This document shows positions 2,534 to 61,551 of a stretch of 64,000 nt of DNA, in pieces. A model generated the notes under the pieces. The model was not told the origin of the DNA, searched no databases, and saw only the letters and a list, made by a program, of their open reading frames with translations. Position numbers and translations under genes: made by a program. The first letter of the stretch is position 1. Each line of letters starts with the position of its first letter. Origin of the DNA: Aliterella atlantica CENA595 (GTDB lineage: Bacteria > Cyanobacteriota > Cyanobacteriia > Cyanobacteriales > Chroococcidiopsidaceae); contig NZ_JYON01000001.1 of NCBI RefSeq assembly GCF_000952155.1, positions 310,001-374,000 on the forward strand, written 5' to 3'.

Positions 2534-3874
2534 ATGACATTTGACTACGATCTATTTGTAATTGGTTCGGGTTCAGCAGGAATAGCAGCTTGCAAACAAG
2601 CTGTCACCTATGGGAAGCGCGTCGGCGTTGTCGAACAAGAAGATTTTGGCGGTACTTGTATCAATCGCGGTTGCATTCCTAAAAAATTTATTGTCTATGC
2701 TGCTGATTTTGCCTTGCAAAACCAAGTTGCATCTAGTTATGGATGGGATAACATTCAAGGTAATTTTGACTGGGGACGTTTTATTCAATCAGTACACCAG
2801 CAGATTGCCAAGCGCCAGCAGTCATACTTGCAAAAGTTACAAGCAACCGGAGTAGAAATGCTCCAAGGTAAAGCAACTTTCGTCGACGCGCATACTGTAG
2901 AAATTAGCGATCGCAAAATTACAGCAGACAAAATTATTATCGCTGTAGGTGGAGAAGCGATAAAACTAGATATACCAGGTGCAGAGTACGCCATTACCTC
3001 CCGCGAGATGTTTCTGCTAGAACAATTACCCAAACGTTTAGCAATTGTTGGCGGCGGCTATATCGGCGTGGAATTTTCTAGCATGATGAATGCTTTTGGC
3101 GTTGAAGTTACCTTGATGGATAACGACGAGTTGATTCTATCGGGCTTTGATGGCGATATTCGCTCTGGCGTACAATCAGGGCTAATGAAAAGGGGAATAA
3201 AGTTTCTTGGCAAAACTACAGCCGAAGAGATTGAGAAAACCGATCGAGGATTGCAGTTAACTTTATCAGGCGATCGCAAAACAATTACTGTAGATACTAT
3301 CTTGTTTGCTACTGGTAGAAGCCCCAAAACCAAAAATCTCGGTTTAGAAAATGCAGGGGTAGAAATTACCGAAAAAGGTGCTGTGCAAGTAGATGAATAC
3401 AGTCGCACTACTCAAGATAATATATTTGCAATTGGCGATTGTACTAGCCGCATTCCTCTAACTCCCGTTGCTAGAGCAGAAGGTAAAGCTGTTGCTAAAA
3501 CAATTTTTGACAGCAGTTCTGTCAAGCTAGATTACAATTGCGTCCCCTCGGCTGTATTTGCGCGTCCAGAAGCCGCTAGCGTGGGTATGAGCGAGGCGAA
3601 AGCCAAAGAAAAGTTTGCAAGCGTTCAATGTCATCGCACTGAGTTTGAGGCATTATTTGAAAGCATGACAGAGCGAGAAGATTGCACGATGATGAAGTTG
3701 GTTGTAGATGGTAGTAGCGATCGCGTTTTAGGCGCTCACATGGTAGGAGAACGCGCTGCTGATATTATTCAATCTCTGGCTGTAGCCATCAAAAAGGGCA
3801 TAACTAAACACGATTTTGATGCGACAATTGGCATCCACCCGACCACAGGAGAAGAGTTTCTAGTGCTAGATTGA
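2534..3874 (+). CDS. Glutathione-reductase-like pyridine nucleotide-disulfide oxidoreductase, divergent paralogue
   Basis: A 446-residue flavoprotein with an FAD-binding GSGSAG motif near residue 11, the redox disulfide Cys42/Cys47 in GGTCINRGC, a second GGGYIG nucleotide-binding fold at residues 173-178, an FAD-contacting ATGR and the active-site HPT..EE at the C terminus. The start at 2534 is chosen because MTFDYDLFVIG matches the start of the next gene; an ATG at 2486 would add 16 residues with no counterpart. It aligns without gaps to the downstream paralogue through the cofactor-binding region. The two arginines that bind the NADPH 2'-phosphate in glutathione reductases are Asn197 and Ser203 here, with Asp196 and Asp198 beside them. 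A conserved glutathione-binding arginine (human Arg347) is lysine. It is therefore probably not an orthodox NADPH glutathione reductase. The true substrate is unknown. Confidence 0.85.
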   Translation: MTFDYDLFVIGSGSAGIAACKQAVTYGKRVGVVEQEDFGGTCINRGCIPKKFIVYAADFALQNQVASSYGWDNIQGNFDWGRFIQSVHQQIAKRQQSYLQKLQATGVEMLQGKATFVDAHTVEISDRKITADKIIIAVGGEAIKLDIPGAEYAITSREMFLLEQLPKRLAIVGGGYIGVEFSSMMNAFGVEVTLMDNDELILSGFDGDIRSGVQSGLMKRGIKFLGKTTAEEIEKTDRGLQLTLSGDRKTITVDTILFATGRSPKTKNLGLENAGVEITEKGAVQVDEYSRTTQDNIFAIGDCTSRIPLTPVARAEGKAVAKTIFDSSSVKLDYNCVPSAVFARPEAASVGMSEAKAKEKFASVQCHRTEFEALFESMTEREDCTMMKLVVDGSSDRVLGAHMVGERAADIIQSLAVAIKKGITKHDFDATIGIHPTTGEEFLVLD

Positions 3875-3909
3875 ACTCAAATGCAGCTATAAGGGGTATC
3901 AGGTAAGTC

Positions 3910-5286
3910 ATGACGTTTGATTACGATCTTTTTGTAATTGGTGCGGGTTCTGGGGGTTTGGCAGCCTCTAAACGCGCCGCTAGCTATGGGGCGAAAGTGG
4001 CGATCGCCGAACAAGATTTAGTCGGCGGTACTTGTGTTGTGCGCGGCTGCATTCCCAAAAAATTAATGGTTTACAGTTCTCACTTTCCCCAACTAATTGA
4101 TGGTGCAGCAGGATACGGTTGGCAAGTGGGCGATCGCCAGCTAGATTGGCAGCATCTAGTTAAGGTTGTAGATAATGAAGTCCGACGATTATCAAATTTG
4201 CATATCAATTTTTTAGAAAAAGCTGGCGTAGAACTTATTCCCAGTCGCGCTACTTTGTTAGATCCTCACACTATAGAAGTTGACGGGCGCAAAGTTACTG
4301 CTGACAAAATTTTAATTGCTGTAGGCGGTCGTCCTGTTAAACCCAATTTACCAGGTATGGATCTAGCAATTACATCTAACGAGATGTTCCACTTACCAGA
4401 AAAACCCAAGCATATTGCAATTATTGGCGCTGGCTACATTGGCGTAGAATTTGCCTCGATTATGAGAGGTTTGGGTTGTGAAGTTACGCAAATTATTCGT
4501 GGCGATTTGATTTTACGCGGGTTCGATCGCGATATCCGTAACGAGATTCAACATGGCATGAGCCATCATGGTGTCAAAATTTTAACTAACACTGTAGTCA
4601 AGCAAGTAGAAAAGGTAGCAGAAGGATTAAAGCTAACTTTAGCTGGCGAGCAAGAAGAACCTATAATTGCTGATACTTTCCTAGCTGCAACCGGAAGAGA
4701 TCCTTATTTAGAGGGATTAGGTTTAGAAAACGTCGGAGTTGAAGTTATTTCTAGTCACGTCGATGGACTTGGCTATAGTACCAGAAGCGCGATCGCTGTC
4801 AATGAATTTAGCCAAACTTCCCAGCCAAATATCTTCGCTGTAGGCGATTGTACAGATAGAATAAACCTCACTCCCGTAGCAATTGGCGAAGGTAGAGCGT
4901 TTGCTGATACCGAATTTGGTAACAATCGGCGATCGCTCAGTCATGAAAATGTCCCCTCTGCAGTATTTTCAACGCCTGAAGCCGCGACTGTAGGCATGAG
5001 CGAAGATGATGCCCAAAAACAATATGGTGACGATATCAAGTGCTATCGCGCCCGTTTCCGCCCGTTATTTCACAGTCTCACCGGACAAGATGAAAAAACA
5101 ATGGTGAAGTTAGTAATAGATGCTAAAACCGATAAAGTTTTAGGCGCTCACATGGTAGGCGAAAACTCAGCCGAAGTAATTCAAGGCGTAGCGATCGCTG
5201 TTAATATGGGCGCAACCAAAAAAGACTTCGATGCTACTGTAGGCATTCACCCATCTACAGCCGAAGAATTCGTTACCCTGCGCTAA
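3910..5286 (+). CDS. gor: Glutathione-disulfide reductase (NADPH)
   Basis: A 458-residue cytosolic flavoenzyme that reduces oxidised glutathione with NADPH. It has GAGSGG for FAD, the redox cysteines Cys42/Cys47 in GGTCVVRGC, GAGYIG for NADPH, both phosphate-binding arginines (Arg197 and Arg203), the conserved Arg in VAIGEGRA that contacts glutathione, and HPSTAEEF with the catalytic His-Glu pair. Length and motifs match cyanobacterial glutathione reductases, which use GxGYIG rather than GxGxxA. The gene starts 35 bp after its divergent paralogue and ends 3 bp before the esterase gene, so the three are likely co-transcribed. It is the one of the pair to regard as the true Gor. Confidence 0.95.
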   Translation: MTFDYDLFVIGAGSGGLAASKRAASYGAKVAIAEQDLVGGTCVVRGCIPKKLMVYSSHFPQLIDGAAGYGWQVGDRQLDWQHLVKVVDNEVRRLSNLHINFLEKAGVELIPSRATLLDPHTIEVDGRKVTADKILIAVGGRPVKPNLPGMDLAITSNEMFHLPEKPKHIAIIGAGYIGVEFASIMRGLGCEVTQIIRGDLILRGFDRDIRNEIQHGMSHHGVKILTNTVVKQVEKVAEGLKLTLAGEQEEPIIADTFLAATGRDPYLEGLGLENVGVEVISSHVDGLGYSTRSAIAVNEFSQTSQPNIFAVGDCTDRINLTPVAIGEGRAFADTEFGNNRRSLSHENVPSAVFSTPEAATVGMSEDDAQKQYGDDIKCYRARFRPLFHSLTGQDEKTMVKLVIDAKTDKVLGAHMVGENSAEVIQGVAIAVNMGATKKDFDATVGIHPSTAEEFVTLR

Positions 5287-5289
5287 CAG

Positions 5290-5922
5290 GTGGATTATAT
5301 TTATCTTCACGGTTTTGCTTCTAGTCCTAGTTCTACCAAAGCTAGGTATTTGCGCGATCACTTTGCAGAACTAGGCATTGACTTAAAAACACCCGATCTA
5401 AATCAAGGCGATTTTTCGCAACTTTCCATTACGCGCCAAATTCTGCAAATAGCGGCAGAATTTCCCGCAAATTCTGCGCCTGTAACTCTCATCGGCTCTA
5501 GTTTAGGTGGTTTAACGGCAGCTTGGCTAGCAGAAAAATACTTGCAAGTTCAGCGCTTGGTACTGCTAGCACCTGCATTTGAGTTTCTATCTCACTGGTT
5601 GCAGCAATTAGGCGCAGACAAGCTAAAGCAATGGCAATTAGAGCAATATTTGCCGATCTATCACTACGGTGAGGGGCGATCGCTTCCTCTTAGTTACAAT
5701 TTCCTCTTAGATGCTGCTAACTACCAAGATCGGCTATTACGTGCTGTTCCAACTTTGATTCTGCATGGCGTTGGCGATGAAGTTATCCCCATTGAGGCTA
5801 GCCGTAATTTTGCTAAGTCGCATCCACAAGTTAAGTTAGTTGAATTAAATAGCGACCATGCGTTAGGCGATGTCATGGTAGACATTTGGCAGCAAATTCA
5901 AGTTTTTTGTCAGTTATATTAA
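5290..5922 (+). CDS. YqiA/YcfP-family alpha/beta-hydrolase (esterase)
   Basis: The 210-residue product starts [13 protein letters not shown], the oxyanion-hole HGF motif of the YqiA family. The nucleophile elbow GSSLGG lies near residue 75, an acid in HGVGDEVIP near residue 160 and the catalytic histidine in NSDHAL near residue 190. YqiA-type proteins are small cytosolic esterases acting on acyl-CoA or short esters; the physiological substrate is not known. The start is GTG, 3 bp after the stop of the glutathione reductase gene, and the stop is 1 bp before hisC. That tight packing implies an operon and translational coupling. Confidence 0.85.
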
Positions 5923-5923
5923 A

Positions 5924-7057
5924 ATGCTTCCATTCATTCGTTCGGACTTAGATGATATCCGCGCTTACAAAGCCCACCCTGGCAGTACGAATAGCGCACC
6001 TGTAACCTCTACAATCGATCGCTTAGATACCAATGAAAATCCCTACGATTTGCCTAGCGACATCAGACAAAAGCTAGCTTGGACTTATCAAGAAATTCTA
6101 GAAAACAATCGCTATCCCGATGGGACACACGAACACTTAAAAGCTGCGATCGCTAAGTACGTTAGCGAGTCAGCAGCTACAAATATTACTACTGATAATA
6201 TCTCTGTAGGTAATGGTTCAGATGAAATTATCCGCTCGATTTTAATTGCTACTTGTGCGGGTAAAGAAGGTACAGTTTTGGTTGCCAATCCTACCTTTAG
6301 TATGTACGCAGTTTTGGCGCAAGCTTTAGGTATTCCTGTCGTTACCGTAGAGCGATCGCTTGTTGATTTTTCTCTAGATATAGCTGCTGCCAATAAAGCG
6401 ATCGCTCAGACTACTAACCCGCCTATCCGCGTCGTGTTTGTCGTTCATCCCAATTCGCCTACAGGGAATGCTTTAACTAGCCAAGAACTATCATGGCTAA
6501 GGAGTTTACCAGAACATATTTTAGTAGTAGTTGACGAAGCTTATTTTGAATTTAGTCAAAATACTGTATTAGGTGAATTATCAAAGCGTCCTAACTGGAT
6601 AGTATTGAGGACATTTTCTAAAGCCTTTAGACTTGCCGCCCATCGCGTCGGTTATGCTATTGGACACATAGATGCGATCGCTGCTTTAGAAAAAATTCGC
6701 TTGCCCTATAATATTCCTAGCTTTTCTTTAGCTGCGGCTTTAATTGTGCTGCAAAACCGCCAACAGTTACTCAATGTTGTTCCCCAAATTTTAGATGAGA
6801 AGGCTAAATTAACTCAAGCTTTAACTCAACAGCCTGAATTACAATTCTGGGAAAGTGCAGCTAATTTTATCTTCGTACGCCTGAACCCCAGTTTTGGGCT
6901 AGCAGAAGAACAATTAAGTCATATCCACGCCCAATTAATGTCTAACGGTACTTTGGTTCGTTACGTTAGCGGTGGATTGCGAATTACTGTCGGTAGTCCC
7001 CAAGAAAATCACAGAACGATAGAACGCCTACAAACGGCATTGAAAAATTATCGTTGA
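5924..7057 (+). CDS. hisC: Histidinol-phosphate aminotransferase
   Basis: A fold-type I PLP aminotransferase of 377 residues that converts imidazole acetol phosphate to histidinol phosphate in histidine synthesis. Visible motifs are [10 protein letters not shown] at the N terminus (substrate recognition), GNGSDE, the PNSPTGN loop, DEAYFEF with the PLP-ring aspartate, and [14 protein letters not shown] with the Schiff-base lysine and phosphate-binding arginine. It begins 1 bp after the esterase stop, so it ends a likely esterase-hisC co-transcript. Many cyanobacteria have a second hisC-like gene, and the substrate could be broader (for example phenylalanine or tyrosine precursors), but the motif set is that of HisC. 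Confidence 0.92.
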
Positions 7058-16224: not shown

Positions 16225-16431
16225 GGGCTGATGTTGTCAGTGCTAGGCGACAAAAAATGTTGCTTTTTAACCATTTTACTTATAACCCACGAAACTAAGT
16301 ATTAGACTATACTTCACCGCTTTAGCGATCTCTATTTATACCTATGTTATTTACACATCCCCTTTAAGGTAGATTTTTCCGAGTGCTTCGTTTGTTGTAA
16401 TATTCCCAGAGCCTAATTGAGGTTAATTGGT

Positions 16432-17067
16432 GTGAAGGCAAAATATTTAACGATCATTTGTACGACATTTGCATTAGCGGTAACTGGAAGTGTAGCGATC
16501 GCGCAATCCAGCACTACTAATGAAAAACCTGAAGAAATCGAGCTTTCTCCTGAAGGCAGAGAAATTCTATGTAAGCGCTTCCCGCTTAACTCCCGTTGTC
16601 AAGGAAGTGCTGAAGGCACAACTGGTGGCGACACTAGCGGTTCTGGCACTACTGAAACTGAAACAACTCCACCGACCGATACAACATCGCCTACTGTCCC
16701 TGGTGGAGCAGATCCTAACGCTCCTGGTAGCACTACAGGTCCCGGCAGCACTGACTCGACAACTCCATCTCCTGAAGCATCACCTGCGCCAACTGACGGC
16801 ACAACTCCACCGACTGATACACCACCAGCAGGCGACAACACGCCAGATCCGAACAATCCAGCGCCAGACACAACAGCGCCTACAGATGGAACCACAGTGC
16901 CACCTACAGACGGAACCACAGCGCCACCTACAGACGGAACCACAGTGCCACCTACAGACGGAACCACAGTGCCACCTACAGATGGAACCACAGTGCCACC
17001 TACAGACGGAACCACAGTGCCACCTACAGACGGAACAACTACTCCAACTCCTGCTCCTTCTCCCTAA
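16432..17067 (+). CDS. Secreted Pro/Thr-rich repeat protein
   Basis: About 211 residues. The GTG at 16432 is preferred to the TTG at 16417 because it puts a normal signal peptide (KAKYLTIICTTFALAVTGSVAIA) at the N terminus and has GAGGT 8 bases upstream. The mature N-terminal part includes ELSPEGREILCKRFPLNSRCQ, a two-cysteine motif I associate with small exported cyanobacterial proteins. The rest is disordered Gly/Thr/Pro/Asp sequence that ends in near-perfect 8-residue repeats of DGTTVPPT, encoded by a 24-bp minisatellite. It is probably a surface or periplasmic linker or wall-associated protein. No function can be assigned. It is convergent with lspA across a strong hairpin. Confidence 0.75.
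   Translation: MKAKYLTIICTTFALAVTGSVAIAQSSTTNEKPEEIELSPEGREILCKRFPLNSRCQGSAEGTTGGDTSGSGTTETETTPPTDTTSPTVPGGADPNAPGSTTGPGSTDSTTPSPEASPAPTDGTTPPTDTPPAGDNTPDPNNPAPDTTAPTDGTTVPPTDGTTAPPTDGTTVPPTDGTTVPPTDGTTVPPTDGTTVPPTDGTTTPTPAPSP
16882..17025 (+). repeat. 24-bp coding minisatellite, six complete units
   Basis: Units of ACAGAYGGAACCACAGYGCC plus ACCT, 24 bp each, run from 16882 to 17025, with a partial seventh beginning at 17026. Units differ only at two silent or near-silent positions (GAT/GAC, GTG/GCG). Such homogeneity points to recent expansion or gene-conversion-like slippage; copy number probably varies among strains. Confidence 0.9.
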
Positions 17068-17130
17068 TTAAGCAGAAGCAACAAGTAGAGTGAAAATTTA
17101 ATAGAGTTACAACTAGCTCTGTAAAGTTAA

Positions 17131-51799: not shown

Positions 51800-54700
51800 T
51801 TAGCTAGCATCGCCAATGAGAATAAATGGCGACCAATATAAAGGATGTTTGTCAATTAAACTAAGTTTTGCTTGCCGCAACGCTTCACCTTTGGTTTTAC
51901 CTTGTTTGAGGTTTTCGTAGAACGCAATCATTAGTTCTTTAGTCTCCTCATCTTTGGCTAACCACAAACTTGCAATCACGCTATCTGCGCCAGCACGTTC
52001 AAATAAGTAAGCCATACCCGCAAATTCCTCACCATTGGACTTAGCTTGCACTGCTGTTTGACAAGCACTAAGCACAACTAAGTCGGTATTTTTTAACCCT
52101 AACAAAGCTGCATCGGCGATATTGAGATTACGATCGCTAAATAGCAATGTATTCGCCTCCATGTTCAAGTCAGGACAACCTTGAGTCTGAAAACAGCCAT
52201 GAGTAGCCAAGTGCAAAATGGGGAAACGCAGTGATTGATTTTTGAAATTGCTCAAAGTAGCGCGATCGCCAATATATGCCTCGCTGCCTGGTAAAATTGG
52301 CGTAATACTTTCTACTTCTTGTTCTGCACCCGCTAATTTGCGGCGATCGCCAGGAGAAGGATTACCAAGAGCTAGCATAGCGCTCTTTTTCTGTGTTTGC
52401 GGCAATGCGCGACTAGATAAACGAGTCAGATTGTTAACTGGATATTTCTCAATTAGATACTTACCCGTTTTGCTGTCGATTAGCGTTTCAAATGGAATAT
52501 AACGCAGCTTACCTGTAGCAATAATGCTCAATTGTTGGGGATTAGCAGCCTGAATTTGCGCTTCGATAGGACGAATCAAAATATCGTAGAGTTTGGAGCT
52601 ATTGGCGCGGAATCTTTTGGGAAACCTAGCATCAGTAAGTTCGCTGCGGTATTGGGTTACTAATTGGTCAAATAATGCTGGATCGAGCTTTTGTTTGGTA
52701 ACTGTAAGCTTATCTTTAGTAATCACAAATAAAGCGATCGCATTTGGGACATTAGTGACATCAGTAAGTAAAACTGGCTGCACAACTACTGTGTTAGCAG
52801 GAATATTCGCCCGCAACTTGGCAACATCTTGAGGTGTAGTTTCAAATAATTCTGCTACTTCAGGAAACTGGCGAGATATACTTTCTGCTTGTTGGTTAAT
52901 TTCTGCTTGTAATTGGTTAATTTGCGCAGATAGCTCTACAGAAAACTTAGTTTGCAATTGCTGGCGCAGGCTTTCTAAACGCTGATTAGATTGGTTCCAT
53001 TTTTCAATTGCTTGTTGCGCTTGAGGGTTAGCCACTTTTGCGTCAATCAAGCGCGAGTAATCTGCTAAATCGGCTGTAGTAGTCAGGTTTACCCATTGGT
53101 AGGCGCGTTCTGGCTGTTTTTGGTCTATCAGTAAGTCAATCAAACCAATTGCTCTTCCTCTACTTGCGTCTAGAAACTGCTGGCGATTTGCTCTTTCGAG
53201 TCCTTTACGAACTTGCAATGTTATTTCTACTGCTTGTTCGAGGTTTTCGATCGCTTCAGTTGGTCTATTGCTGTCTCGATAGGCTACACCGACATTACCT
53301 AGAGTTGCAGCTTTAATGCTAGCATCGCCGATTTTATTGGCAATAGGTAAAGCTTGGTTATAAAATGTCAACGCTTTGTCAGGCTGAGAGTTTGTATAGT
53401 AAACTAGCCCAATATTATTTAGTGTTGTTGCTTCTCCACTCAAATCGCCTACTTTGCGCCGAATTGGTAAAGCTTGGTTATAAAATTCTAAGGCTTTTTG
53501 TTGCTGTCCTAAGTTTCTATACACTTCGCCAACATTACTCAAAGTAGTAGCTTGGACGCTGATATCTTTGACTTCTTTGAGAATCGGCAAAGCTTGATTA
53601 TAAAATGCTAGCGCCTTTTGTGATTCGCCCATAGCTGCGTAGATTACGCCAATATTGCTCAAGGTACTAGCTTGCTGGGATCTGTCGCCTACTTGCTTGA
53701 ATATCGGTAACGCTTGATTGTAAAACTCTAATGCTCTTTTAGGTTGCCCAATATTATTGTAAACTCCACCAATATTATTTAATAATATAGCTGATTGCCT
53801 TGTATCTCCTACTTGCTTAACAATAGGCAAAGCTTGATTATAAAACTCTAATGCCTTTTGCGGTTGTCCTATGTTATTGTAAACTTCACCAATATTATTT
53901 AATACTGTGGCTTCTTGAGCGCGATCGCCAGATTTTTGCACGATCGGTAAAGATTGATTTAGAAACTCTAAAGCTTTTTGCGGTTGTCCGGTTGCTAAAT
54001 AGATACCAGCAATATTATTAAGCGCAATAGCTTGTCCCGCAGAATTTTGTATAGTTCTAGTTATCGACAATGCTTGATTATATAGGTCGAGAGCCTTTTG
54101 CGTTTCTCCAGTTGCGCGATATACAGCACCAATGTTATTTAGAGTTGCTGCTTCTTTATAGCGATCGCCTGTTTTTCTAAATATTACTAAAGTAGAATTA
54201 AATGCCTCTAGAGCTTTCTGCGGTTGTCCGGTTTCTAGATACAAGCCAGCAAGATTGCCCTGAGTAACTGCTTCTTGACTAGAATTACCTGCTTTTTTAC
54301 TAATCGATAAAGATAAATTGTAAGACTCTAAAGCCTTCTGCGGTTGCCCTGTAGATTTATACAATTCACCAATACTATTAAGAGTATTGGCTTCTCCCCC
54401 AGTATCGCCTACGGCTCTATTGATGGGCAAAGCCGAGTTGAAAAACTCTAGTGCTTTCTGTTTTTGCCCAAGCTGGCTGTAAACTATCCCAATACTATTT
54501 AAGGTATTAGCTTCTTGGGATCTACTGCGAACTTCTTTGAAAATTAGTAAAGCCAAGTTGAAAAACTCTAAAGCCTTCTGAGATTGTCCAGTAACTCGAT
54601 AAATTTCGCCAATATTACTCAATACAGTACCTTGTCCCGATCGATTGTTAATTGCTTTAAAGTTATCTAACGCTCGATTGTAGGCATCTAATGCTTTTTG

Positions 54701-55222
54701 AGTTTGCCCAATATTGTTGTAATTTAAACCAATACCTAATAAGGCTGTAGCTTCAGTTTCTTTGTCATTAACCTGGCGATTGAGTGCTAAAACTTGTTCA
54801 AATGTAGCGATCGCTTGTTGGGGTTGTCCTTGCTTAGTCTGCTGGATACCTTGTTGCAACAATTTTTGAGTGTTACCAGCTTGGGAAGTAGAAGGCTGAT
54901 TTGACGGTGTTTGAGGAGTTGTACTAGGACTTATTGCCAAGAAATTACTAATTAAGTTAATAGCAGCAAGGATTTCTCCTTCTGTTTTCTTATCCTTGAG
55001 TTGTCTGGCTAAGACTAAAGCTTGTTGCAATGTACCAACTGCCTGTTGAAATTGTCCTTGTTCTGTATATTTAACTGATTGCTGTAGTAATTTTTCTAAT
55101 TCTTGCTTGGGCGATCGCGTTTGGGCGGAAGCTATGTGAATTGTTGGCGGTACAGCGATAGAAGCTAGACTAATAGAAACGGTTAAAAGGCTACTCAATA
55201 GTTTTTTTACAGGCTGGCTCAT
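51800..55222 (-). CDS. Exported TPR-CHAT protein, copy 1 (caspase-like protease domain)
   Basis: An 1140-residue protein. A signal peptide (residues about 7-35, LLSSLLTVSISLASIAVPP) indicates export. Residues about 40-130 hold two looser TPRs. Thirteen consecutive 40-residue TPR units follow (motif QPQKALEFYNQALPIxKxVGD then ATLNNIGxVY). A linker rich in NQLQAEINQQAESISRQFPEVAELFETTPQDV comes next, then the CHAT domain. The caspase-type dyad is His1008 in HLATHGCF and Cys1054 in VVLSACQTA. CHAT proteases in other systems cut specific proteins when their TPR part senses a trigger. Copy 2 at 58811-61399 is close in the CHAT part. It is divergent from a decayed DUF2887 gene. Confidence 0.9.
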   Translation of the reverse strand: MSQPVKKLLSSLLTVSISLASIAVPPTIHIASAQTRSPKQELEKLLQQSVKYTEQGQFQQAVGTLQQALVLARQLKDKKTEGEILAAINLISNFLAISPSTTPQTPSNQPSTSQAGNTQKLLQQGIQQTKQGQPQQAIATFEQVLALNRQVNDKETEATALLGIGLNYNNIGQTQKALDAYNRALDNFKAINNRSGQGTVLSNIGEIYRVTGQSQKALEFFNLALLIFKEVRSRSQEANTLNSIGIVYSQLGQKQKALEFFNSALPINRAVGDTGGEANTLNSIGELYKSTGQPQKALESYNLSLSISKKAGNSSQEAVTQGNLAGLYLETGQPQKALEAFNSTLVIFRKTGDRYKEAATLNNIGAVYRATGETQKALDLYNQALSITRTIQNSAGQAIALNNIAGIYLATGQPQKALEFLNQSLPIVQKSGDRAQEATVLNNIGEVYNNIGQPQKALEFYNQALPIVKQVGDTRQSAILLNNIGGVYNNIGQPKRALEFYNQALPIFKQVGDRSQQASTLSNIGVIYAAMGESQKALAFYNQALPILKEVKDISVQATTLSNVGEVYRNLGQQQKALEFYNQALPIRRKVGDLSGEATTLNNIGLVYYTNSQPDKALTFYNQALPIANKIGDASIKAATLGNVGVAYRDSNRPTEAIENLEQAVEITLQVRKGLERANRQQFLDASRGRAIGLIDLLIDQKQPERAYQWVNLTTTADLADYSRLIDAKVANPQAQQAIEKWNQSNQRLESLRQQLQTKFSVELSAQINQLQAEINQQAESISRQFPEVAELFETTPQDVAKLRANIPANTVVVQPVLLTDVTNVPNAIALFVITKDKLTVTKQKLDPALFDQLVTQYRSELTDARFPKRFRANSSKLYDILIRPIEAQIQAANPQQLSIIATGKLRYIPFETLIDSKTGKYLIEKYPVNNLTRLSSRALPQTQKKSAMLALGNPSPGDRRKLAGAEQEVESITPILPGSEAYIGDRATLSNFKNQSLRFPILHLATHGCFQTQGCPDLNMEANTLLFSDRNLNIADAALLGLKNTDLVVLSACQTAVQAKSNGEEFAGMAYLFERAGADSVIASLWLAKDEETKELMIAFYENLKQGKTKGEALRQAKLSLIDKHPLYWSPFILIGDAS

Positions 55223-58810: not shown

Positions 58811-61399
58811 TTAACGAGCATTGCCAATGAGGATAAATGGCGACCAATATAAAGGATGCTTGTCAATTAAACTTAGTTTCGCCTGACGTAATGCTTCTGC
58901 TTTAGTTTTACCTTGTTTGAGATTTTGGTAAAACGCAATCATCAAGTCTTTTGTCTCCTCATCTTTGGCTAACCACAGACTTGCAATTACACTTTTAGCG
59001 CCAGCGCGTTCAAATAAATAGGCAATTCCAGCAAATTCTTCACCGTTGGAATTAGCTTGCACCGCCGTCTGACAAGCGCTGAGGACAACTAAATCTGTGT
59101 TTTTGAGTCCCAGCAGCGCCGCATCAGCAATATTAAAGGAGCGATCGCTAAACAATAAACTATTTGCCTCTAACTTTAAGTCTGGACAACCTTGGGGTTG
59201 AAAACAGCCATGCGTCGCCAAATGCAAAATAGGAAAACGAGGAGCAAGAATTTCAAAATTACTTAGAGTAGCTTGTTTACCAATGGCAGCTTTACTTCCT
59301 GGCAAAATAGTTGTGATATCTTTTACTTCCTCTTCTGCGCCTGCTAAGTTGCGGCGATCGCTAGGAGAAGGATTGCCAATAGCTAAAATTGACGGCTGCT
59401 TATCTAACTTTGATGAATTGAAGCGCTCGGAAAGACGAGTAAGATTGTTGATAGGATATTTCTCAATTAAATACTTGCCTGTTTGGCGATCGATTAGCGT
59501 TTCAAAAGGAACGTAACGCAACTTACCAGTTGCAACAATACTTAATTGTTTGGTAGAAGCTGGAATTTGAGCTTCTATAGGGCGAATCAGAATGTCGTAA
59601 AGATCGCGGCTAGTAGCTTGATACTTGCGAGAGCTTGCAGTTGTTAGTTGAGTACGGTATTGAGTAACTAGCCCGTTAAATACTTTTGGATCGAGTTTTT
59701 GTTGTTTGACAGTGATTTTATCTTTGGTGAGGACAAATAGAGCAATAGTATTTGGTACGCTACTAACGTCTGTAAGTAAAACAGGTTGCACAACTACAGT
59801 ATTAGGTGGAATATTCGCCTGCAACCTAGCAATATCAGCAGGCTTAGTTTCAAACAATTCAGCAACTTCAGGAAACTGGCGAACGATTTCTTCGGCTTTT
59901 TGGTTAGTTTGAGCCTGTAATTGATTGATTTGCGCTGATAATTGAGGCGAAAATTTTTGTTGCAATTGCTGCCTTAATGCGTCTAACTGGCGATTAGCTT
60001 GATTCCAGCCGTCAATTGCTTGCTGCGCTTGAGGGTTTGCAACTTTAGCATTAATTAGACGAGAGTAGTCGGCAAGATCGGCTGTAGTAGTTAAGTTTAC
60101 CCATTGGTAGGCACGTTCAGGCTGTTTTTGAGCGATGAGTAAGTCAATCAAGCCGATCGCCCTACCGCTGTTATTGTCCAAAAACTGGCGACGATTGACT
60201 CTTTCTAGCCCTCCCCGCAGTTGTAAGGTAATTGCTACAGACTGCTCTAAATTAGCGATCGCTTCAGTCGGTCGCTTGAGATCTCGATACACTGTACCAA
60301 TATTCACCAAAGTAGCAGATTCTCCAGCTTTGTCGGCAATTTTTCGCCACAGGGGCAAAGCCGATTTGTAACTGGCTAAAGCTTGTGGTAGTTTGCCCAT
60401 ACTGGCATAGATTACGCCAAGATTATTAGTAGTATTAGCCTCGCCGCTAACATCGCCAACTTGTTTATAAATTGCCAAAGCCGAGTTGTAATACGCTAAT
60501 GCCGATTGAGATTGCCCAAGTTCGTTAGTAATTGCCCCAAGATTATTTAATGATGCGGCAGCACCCAGCCGATTTTCTGTTTTTTGATGAATTGGCAAAG
60601 CCTGTTTGAAAAATGATGCTGCTTGCTGGGGTAATCCAAGTTCGCGGTAGGCTACACCAAGATTATTTAATATTGTGGCATCTTGAGTGCGATCGCGAGT
60701 ATTACGGCGAATCTCTAAAGCTTGCTGAAGAAATTTCAATGCTTGCTGCGGTTGTCCAATAGCTATATATGTTTCACCAATATTATTTAGCGCTGTGGCT
60801 TCTCTGGGGCGATCTTTTACCTCCCTATACAACGGCAAAGCTTGATTGTAAGCTGCTAATGCTTGTTGAAATTGTCCGATATCTTTATAAACAGCGCCAA
60901 TATTATTTAGAGTTGTAGCTTCCCCAGCGCGATCTTTTACTTGTTTGCGTAACACAAGCGACTGCTTGAGAATTGATAAGGCTTGCTGCGGTTGCCCAAG
61001 ATTGAGGTAAATGACGCTTAGATTATTTAGTACGCTAGCTTCGCCATTTAGATCTTTAACTGTTTTGAAGATGGCAAGTGCCTGGTTGTACGACTTCAAG
61101 GCTGATTGGAGTTGTCCGAGAGTGTTATAGTTTAGACCAATTCCTAGTAGCGCGGCAGCTTCAACTTTTGGCTGTTTGAGCTTGCGGGCAAGGGCGATGA
61201 GTTGCTCTAGCGTATCAATGGCTGCACGCGTCTGTCCTTGTTGAGTTTGAGCGATCGCTTTATCGATTAATTGGTTTAATGCTTGAGATTCTGGAGAATT
61301 TTGCGTTTGGGCTGCGACATTTTGAGCTACTAGCAGTAAATGTAGAGGAGTTATGCCAATACTTAGTGCGAGAAAACTACTTAAAAGCTTGTTTGCCAT
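58811..61399 (-). CDS. Exported TPR-CHAT protein, copy 2
   Basis: An 862-residue protein. The ATG at 61399 is chosen because it gives a normal signal peptide (MANKLLSSFLALSIGITPLHLLL); the open frame extends 29 codons upstream with no meaning. One looser TPR is followed by eight 40-residue TPR units, a coiled linker (RQQLQQKFSPQLSAQINQLQAQ) and the CHAT domain with His730 in HLATHGCF and Cys776 in VVLSACQTA. The CHAT part is highly similar to copy 1; the TPR array is five units shorter. It is divergent from an intact DUF2887 gene and 44 bp upstream of the WD40-like gene. Confidence 0.9.
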   Translation of the reverse strand: MANKLLSSFLALSIGITPLHLLLVAQNVAAQTQNSPESQALNQLIDKAIAQTQQGQTRAAIDTLEQLIALARKLKQPKVEAAALLGIGLNYNTLGQLQSALKSYNQALAIFKTVKDLNGEASVLNNLSVIYLNLGQPQQALSILKQSLVLRKQVKDRAGEATTLNNIGAVYKDIGQFQQALAAYNQALPLYREVKDRPREATALNNIGETYIAIGQPQQALKFLQQALEIRRNTRDRTQDATILNNLGVAYRELGLPQQAASFFKQALPIHQKTENRLGAAASLNNLGAITNELGQSQSALAYYNSALAIYKQVGDVSGEANTTNNLGVIYASMGKLPQALASYKSALPLWRKIADKAGESATLVNIGTVYRDLKRPTEAIANLEQSVAITLQLRGGLERVNRRQFLDNNSGRAIGLIDLLIAQKQPERAYQWVNLTTTADLADYSRLINAKVANPQAQQAIDGWNQANRQLDALRQQLQQKFSPQLSAQINQLQAQTNQKAEEIVRQFPEVAELFETKPADIARLQANIPPNTVVVQPVLLTDVSSVPNTIALFVLTKDKITVKQQKLDPKVFNGLVTQYRTQLTTASSRKYQATSRDLYDILIRPIEAQIPASTKQLSIVATGKLRYVPFETLIDRQTGKYLIEKYPINNLTRLSERFNSSKLDKQPSILAIGNPSPSDRRNLAGAEEEVKDITTILPGSKAAIGKQATLSNFEILAPRFPILHLATHGCFQPQGCPDLKLEANSLLFSDRSFNIADAALLGLKNTDLVVLSACQTAVQANSNGEEFAGIAYLFERAGAKSVIASLWLAKDEETKDLMIAFYQNLKQGKTKAEALRQAKLSLIDKHPLYWSPFILIGNAR

Positions 61400-61551
61400 A
61401 TTTACATTGTTATCAATTAGGGCGTAGCAGTATATCTTTTTAAAGACGAAGCGATCGCTTGCGGCAAGCTGACAATATATTGTCACTCGCTCTAAGTATT
61501 ATTATCGCCATGCAACACTAAAAGTAACTTTGGACGATCGCGCGATCGCCT

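Follow-up and report, generated by a model that had tools for sequence, protein, structure and literature searches.

The first of two tandem glutathione reductase (GR) family genes in a 64,000-nucleotide stretch of Aliterella atlantica CENA595 DNA (hereafter the window) probably encodes an additional, NADH-preferring GR-like disulfide reductase, which stands beside an ordinary NADPH-type GR and has GSSG as its most likely substrate. A gap of 35 bases lies between the two genes, termed copy 1 and copy 2, and both open reading frames, as given in a preliminary description of this DNA, were confirmed on re-reading. The start of copy 1 at 2534 matches that of its homologues, and a further in-frame ATG at 2486 is not conserved. 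The features of the locus are as follows.

2534..3874, + strand: copy 1, a GR-family flavoprotein disulfide reductase of 446 aa, predicted to prefer NADH (PRK06116, 543.8 bits, cut-off 480; clade and residue analysis).
2657..2674, + strand: redox-active Cys42...Cys47 of copy 1, invariant in 66/66 clade members.
3050..3067, + strand: GxGxxG fingerprint of the copy 1 NAD(P) domain (Gly173-Gly178), from sequence and alignment.
3119..3127, + strand: Asp196-Asn197-Asp198 of copy 1, an acidic NAD-type signature after model strand 191-195 (196 is acidic in 58/66 members of the clade and in 0/89 others).
3140..3142, + strand: Ser203 of copy 1, replacing the second phosphate-binding Arg/Lys (basic in 0/66 clade members).
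3473..3487, + strand: Arg314 to Lys318 of copy 1, within model helix 310-325; 318 is the lost Arg347 position, and 314, one turn before it, is where a basic residue was gained.
3836..3853, + strand: His435...Glu440 of copy 1, catalytic acid-base pair of the partner subunit, invariant in 66/66.
3910..5286, + strand: copy 2, an ordinary cyanobacterial NADPH-type GR of 458 aa (TIGR01424, 699 bits, cut-off 606; Arg197, Arg203).
4747..4776, + strand: ten-residue insert of copy 2 (residues 280-289), missing in copy 1 by pairwise alignment.
5290..5922, + strand: esterase/hydrolase-like gene (named by reading), directly downstream of copy 2 and syntenic (neighbour cluster 6).
5924..7057, + strand: HisC-like aminotransferase gene (named by reading), syntenic (neighbour cluster 5, in 22/22 tandem loci).

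Directly upstream of the pair, at 1578-2441, a class D beta-lactamase-like protein with an STYK motif is encoded (named by reading). Elsewhere the window contains a Pro/Thr-rich repeat protein of 216 aa composed of PTDGTTVPP units (16417-17071), whose repeat leaves a second overlapping frame open over 183 aa, and, on the - strand, a pair of closely paralogous large TPR-repeat proteins whose C-terminal ends are CHAT-like (51800-55222 and 58811-61486, named by reading) and which lie a few kilobases apart.

Copy 1 is placed in the GR family by PRK06116, the broader NCBIfam GR model, and falls below the NCBIfam cut-off of TIGR01424 (544.1 bits against 606.05), which copy 2 exceeds. It is likewise below the cut-off of the lipoamide_DH model TIGR01350 (375.2 against 408.8). 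The second redox cysteine is followed by PKK, and the cysteine pair with PKK is invariant in all 66 members of the copy 1 clade described below; the model cut-offs and this motif together rule out a dihydrolipoyl dehydrogenase or a mercuric reductase. The genome encodes six proteins with a Pyr_redox_dim domain and possesses a glutathione synthetase gene, so GSH is probably made. Automatic annotation labels both copies as plain glutathione reductase, which would serve as a warning if the NADH reading is true.

The two proteins share 224 identities overall (~50%) and pair without a gap over residues 1-248, in keeping with the gapless alignment past residue 205 reported initially. Pairwise alignment also agrees with the residue contrast described there, copy 1 having Asp196, Asn197, Asp198 and Ser203 where copy 2 has Ile196, Arg197, Gly198 and Arg203. 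Positions 197 and 203 constitute the NADPH 2'-phosphate site (Arg218 and Arg224 in human GR, the numbering of which follows a human sequence with its landmark residues checked). In the predicted structure of copy 1 (mean pLDDT 87.6, with the final 12 residues poorly modelled), residue 196 directly follows strand 191-195, which is beta-2 of the second Rossmann domain. The residue after strand beta-2 of a Rossmann fold is the classic NAD-type site. The preliminary description had further placed these changes at the positions altered in an engineered E. coli Gor; residue comparison agrees, and the seven substitutions that rendered Gor NAD-dependent include the switch positions of copy 1 (PMC5817062). 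Copy 1 scores higher against the engineered Gor chain than against the wild type (326.6 and 323.0 bits), whereas copy 2 shows the opposite order (320.8 and 325.7 bits), a contrast of a few bits that serves as a consistency check and not as proof.

A scan of named genomes yielded 49 loci, most of them in Nostocales, that are 55-66% identical to copy 1, together with a second set, close to 48-51%, that is nearly all ordinary GR; whole-genome searches recovered further clade members at 54-71% identity. The 31 copy-1-like sequences in a 79-protein tree all fall into a single clade among the cyanobacterial GRs (SH-aLRT 100), which is still single without the NAD domain (100) and from the NAD domain alone (99), these being quick trees without bootstraps that do not fix where the clade branches inside the cyanobacterial GRs. 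A recent tandem duplication is ruled out by the ~50% identity of the copies and by the old clade.

A search for other cyanobacterial GRs bearing the acidic change had been suggested at the outset, and 58 of the 66 distinct copy 1 orthologues prove to have Asp or Glu at position 196, the other eight having Asn. At 203 the clade has Ser, Asp, Glu or Pro, and a basic residue occurs there in none of its members. Among 89 other cyanobacterial GR-like sequences, an acid at 196 is found in none, a basic residue at 197 in 87 and a basic residue at 203 in 62; the two non-basic cases at 197 belong to a third GR-like paralogue, considered below. Given that the E. coli, human and rhizobial GRs have Arg at 197, the acid is the derived state. 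The original proposal that copy 1 is probably NADH-dependent is strengthened by the clade-wide acid and by the loss of the base at 203 in 66/66, and these residues argue strongly for an NADH preference, although the preference itself is still inferred. The Gln noted at the KQ position holds for the pair (Q22 in copy 1, R22 in copy 2, each after K21) but not for the clade, in which position 22 is mostly Lys. Position 197 is still Lys or Arg beside the 196 residue in 37 of the 66 members, some of which may therefore take both coenzymes, and an ordinary Anabaena GR takes NADPH with some NADH activity (PMC10295655), so the gain in copy 1 may be one of degree. Both observations favour a GR with dual or NADPH-leaning coenzyme use, in which the acid would only tune the site; for copy 1, which has acids at 196, 198 and 199 and a base at neither 197 nor 203, we regard this as quite unlikely.

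The clade is present in 19 of 291 genomes, 10 of 121 genera and four families of the window's order at the threshold used, and was not found in five other genomes of the window's genus, three of them incomplete. This distribution is patchy and, together with an in-frame stop in one locus, could be expected of a decaying duplicate without function. Such decay is nevertheless highly improbable for copy 1, since frames are intact in nearly all loci, the median dN/dS of the copy 1 gene is 0.15 (over 103 non-independent pairs), the catalytic residues (Cys pair and His-Glu) are invariant in 66/66 members and one directional change is common to the clade. The dN/dS value and the invariant catalytic residues rule out a pseudogene or drift, and the two copies are an old paralogue pair under purifying selection, with no one-off mutation involved. 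The in-frame stop is in Scytonema sp. RU_4_4, a MAG (L012:4959-6347), where it splits the copy 1 orthologue and leaves the adjacent ordinary GR intact; it represents either decay or an assembly error.

An ordinary GR is also kept in 18 of the 19 clade-bearing genomes, the exception being an 89%-complete draft, which indicates that copy 1 adds to the ordinary enzyme and does not replace it. The copy 1 gene adjoins an ordinary GR in 22 other loci, with the HisC-like gene next in all 22 and the esterase-like gene in most (neighbour clusters were made by BLAST and genes named by reading), and the same adjacency occurs in nine genomes of the window's family. The gene lacks an adjacent GR in most Nostoc, its neighbours there being CHASE2-like, NYN-like and 2-isopropylmalate-synthase-like (named by reading). 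The host names Nostoc, Scytonema, Calothrix, Brasilonema and Rhizonema hint at a possible link to a desiccation-tolerant lifestyle. Two other associations were considered and dropped: nitrogen fixation gave no clear signal (nifH occurs in 11/19 genomes with the clade and in 10/29 hand-picked genomes without it, and the window's genome lacks nifH), and ergothioneine was uninformative, EgtD being nearly ubiquitous in the order.

No plasmid match to the clade was found at 60% identity or above, and the four cyanobacterial plasmid copies examined are a different paralogue. This third GR-like paralogue was seen at L160, L163, L164, L165 and L166, and also at L061 and L110; its plasmid hosts are Chroococcidiopsis thermalis PCC 7203, Gloeocapsa PCC 7428, Brasilonema and Nostoc C052. 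It retains the redox Cys pair and His-Glu. The GxGxxG of its NAD(P) domain is disrupted, reading GSDQIA, GSNHIA or GGNYIP, and in 7/7 loci the charges of the human Lys66-Glu201 pair are exchanged, giving Glu66-Lys201. On the four plasmids a copper oxidase, a four-helix-bundle copper-binding protein or a heavy-metal ATPase is encoded nearby. This paralogue may have lost the normal mode of NAD(P)H use.

The disulfide site of the copy 1 clade combines conservation with change. The redox Cys pair and the equivalents of Lys66, Lys67, His467 and Glu472 are invariant in the 66 members, human position 37 is Lys or Arg in 65/66 (Lys21 in copy 1), and position 114 is Tyr or Phe in 65/66, where other cyanobacterial enzymes mostly have His. 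The retention of Arg37 (as Lys), Lys67, Tyr114, His467 and Glu472 equivalents leaves GSSG as the first-choice candidate substrate, for which these residues argue with moderate strength. Arg347 is one of three arginines named as setting the choice between GR and trypanothione substrates (PMC7221613). The preliminary description had observed Lys in its place, which stands for the pair (Lys318 in copy 1, Arg329 in copy 2) but is not a clade signature, as the position, Arg in 89/89 others, varies in the clade among Ile, Glu, Lys, Arg and more. Four residues ahead of 347 and within the same predicted helix, position 343 is Lys or Arg in 56/66 members. A shifted positive charge that still holds GSSG and a changed substrate would both fit this pattern.

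The second possibility, that copy 1 is an NADH-dependent reductase that acts poorly on GSSG and serves some other disulfide (that of a modified glutathione or of gamma-glutamylcysteine, or else a protein or mixed disulfide), draws on the variable 347 position, on the loss of the C-terminal Arg478 equivalent and on the systematic differences between the clade and other cyanobacterial GRs at positions 113, 117 and 343. It is considered unlikely, because the Cys pair and the glutathione-site residues listed above, Lys66 included, are kept, a base at 343 could stand in for Arg347, the partner gene is a GR itself, and no biosynthesis gene for another thiol was found beside copy 1 in the neighbourhoods compared. 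A more far-reaching idea is that of an undescribed cyanobacterial enzyme class, an NADH-specific reductase for a glutathione-derived disulfide other than GSSG, in an operon with an NADPH GR, so that two coenzyme pools would serve two thiol pools; this we hold to be rather doubtful.

As we envisage it, copy 1 would be an FAD-dependent homodimeric GR-family disulfide reductase with a coenzyme site rebuilt for NADH. Asp196 at the end of beta-2 (Asp or Glu in most orthologues) would hold NADH by bonds to its adenosine-ribose hydroxyls and keep off NADPH by repelling its 2'-phosphate; the second base that binds this phosphate (Arg203) is missing. NADH would hand its electrons to FAD, from which they would reach Cys42/Cys47 and finally a disulfide of the glutathione type, GSSG being the most likely. 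Acid-base catalysis would be provided by His435'/Glu440' from the partner subunit. Alongside NADPH-dependent copy 2, this would make glutathione reducible from the NADH pool as well; that copy 1 serves when NADPH is short is a guess. The Asn at 196 in eight members, the loss of Arg347 and the patchy distribution count against this reading. If it is true, these cyanobacteria can reduce glutathione from both NADPH and NADH, uncoupling thiol repair from light-driven NADPH supply, and the clade provides an old conserved paralogue pair in which to study natural NADPH-to-NADH switches.

NADH-dependent GRs as such are no novelty, having been described from purple sulfur bacteria (PMC4560021; PDB 2rab), whilst a description of this cyanobacterial clade was not found in the literature searched, in which subscription journals were thinly covered. 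An excerpt of a Chroococcidiopsis paper from 2026 mentions five copies of garB/gor for a single strain and offers no analysis of them (PMC13308351). The GR of Allochromatium vinosum, a purple bacterium, has been described as a natural NADH-dependent enzyme (PMC4560021), a property that copy 1 would share. The Anabaena PCC 7120 GR prefers NADPH and has Lys203, as well as an insert of 10 residues close to its nucleotide site, whose removal raised efficiency with both coenzymes (PMC10295655); it shares GxGxxG with copy 1, but its Lys203 and insert are of the copy 2 type. The engineered NAD-dependent Gor (PDB 1ges) resembles copy 1 in its acid at the end of beta-2 and in lacking, at corresponding positions, both arginines, although it is man-made and has its new acids at E. 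coli positions 197 and 200, the copy 1 acids lying at the equivalents of 197, 199 and 200. The top Foldseek match to copy 1 is the glutathione amide reductase of Chromatium gracile (PDB 2r9z, and 2rab with NAD; TM 0.95, 38% identity), which shares the GR fold and the absence of both phosphate-binding arginines and whose structure was solved with NAD. In the tree it groups with proteobacterial GRs, outside the copy 1 clade. We take Glu21, at the human Arg37 position, to be the hallmark of this enzyme (EC 1.8.1.16); copy 1 instead has Lys21, and Lys or Arg occurs there in 65/66 clade members. The amide reductase also keeps Arg347, which copy 1 has lost, and has Ala-Leu-Glu at 196-198 and Phe at 203, its acid lying two positions later than that of copy 1. 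Should the NADH reading be true, copy 1 would thus represent a natural coenzyme switch in a GR, achieved by another route than in the purple-bacterial glutathione amide reductase.
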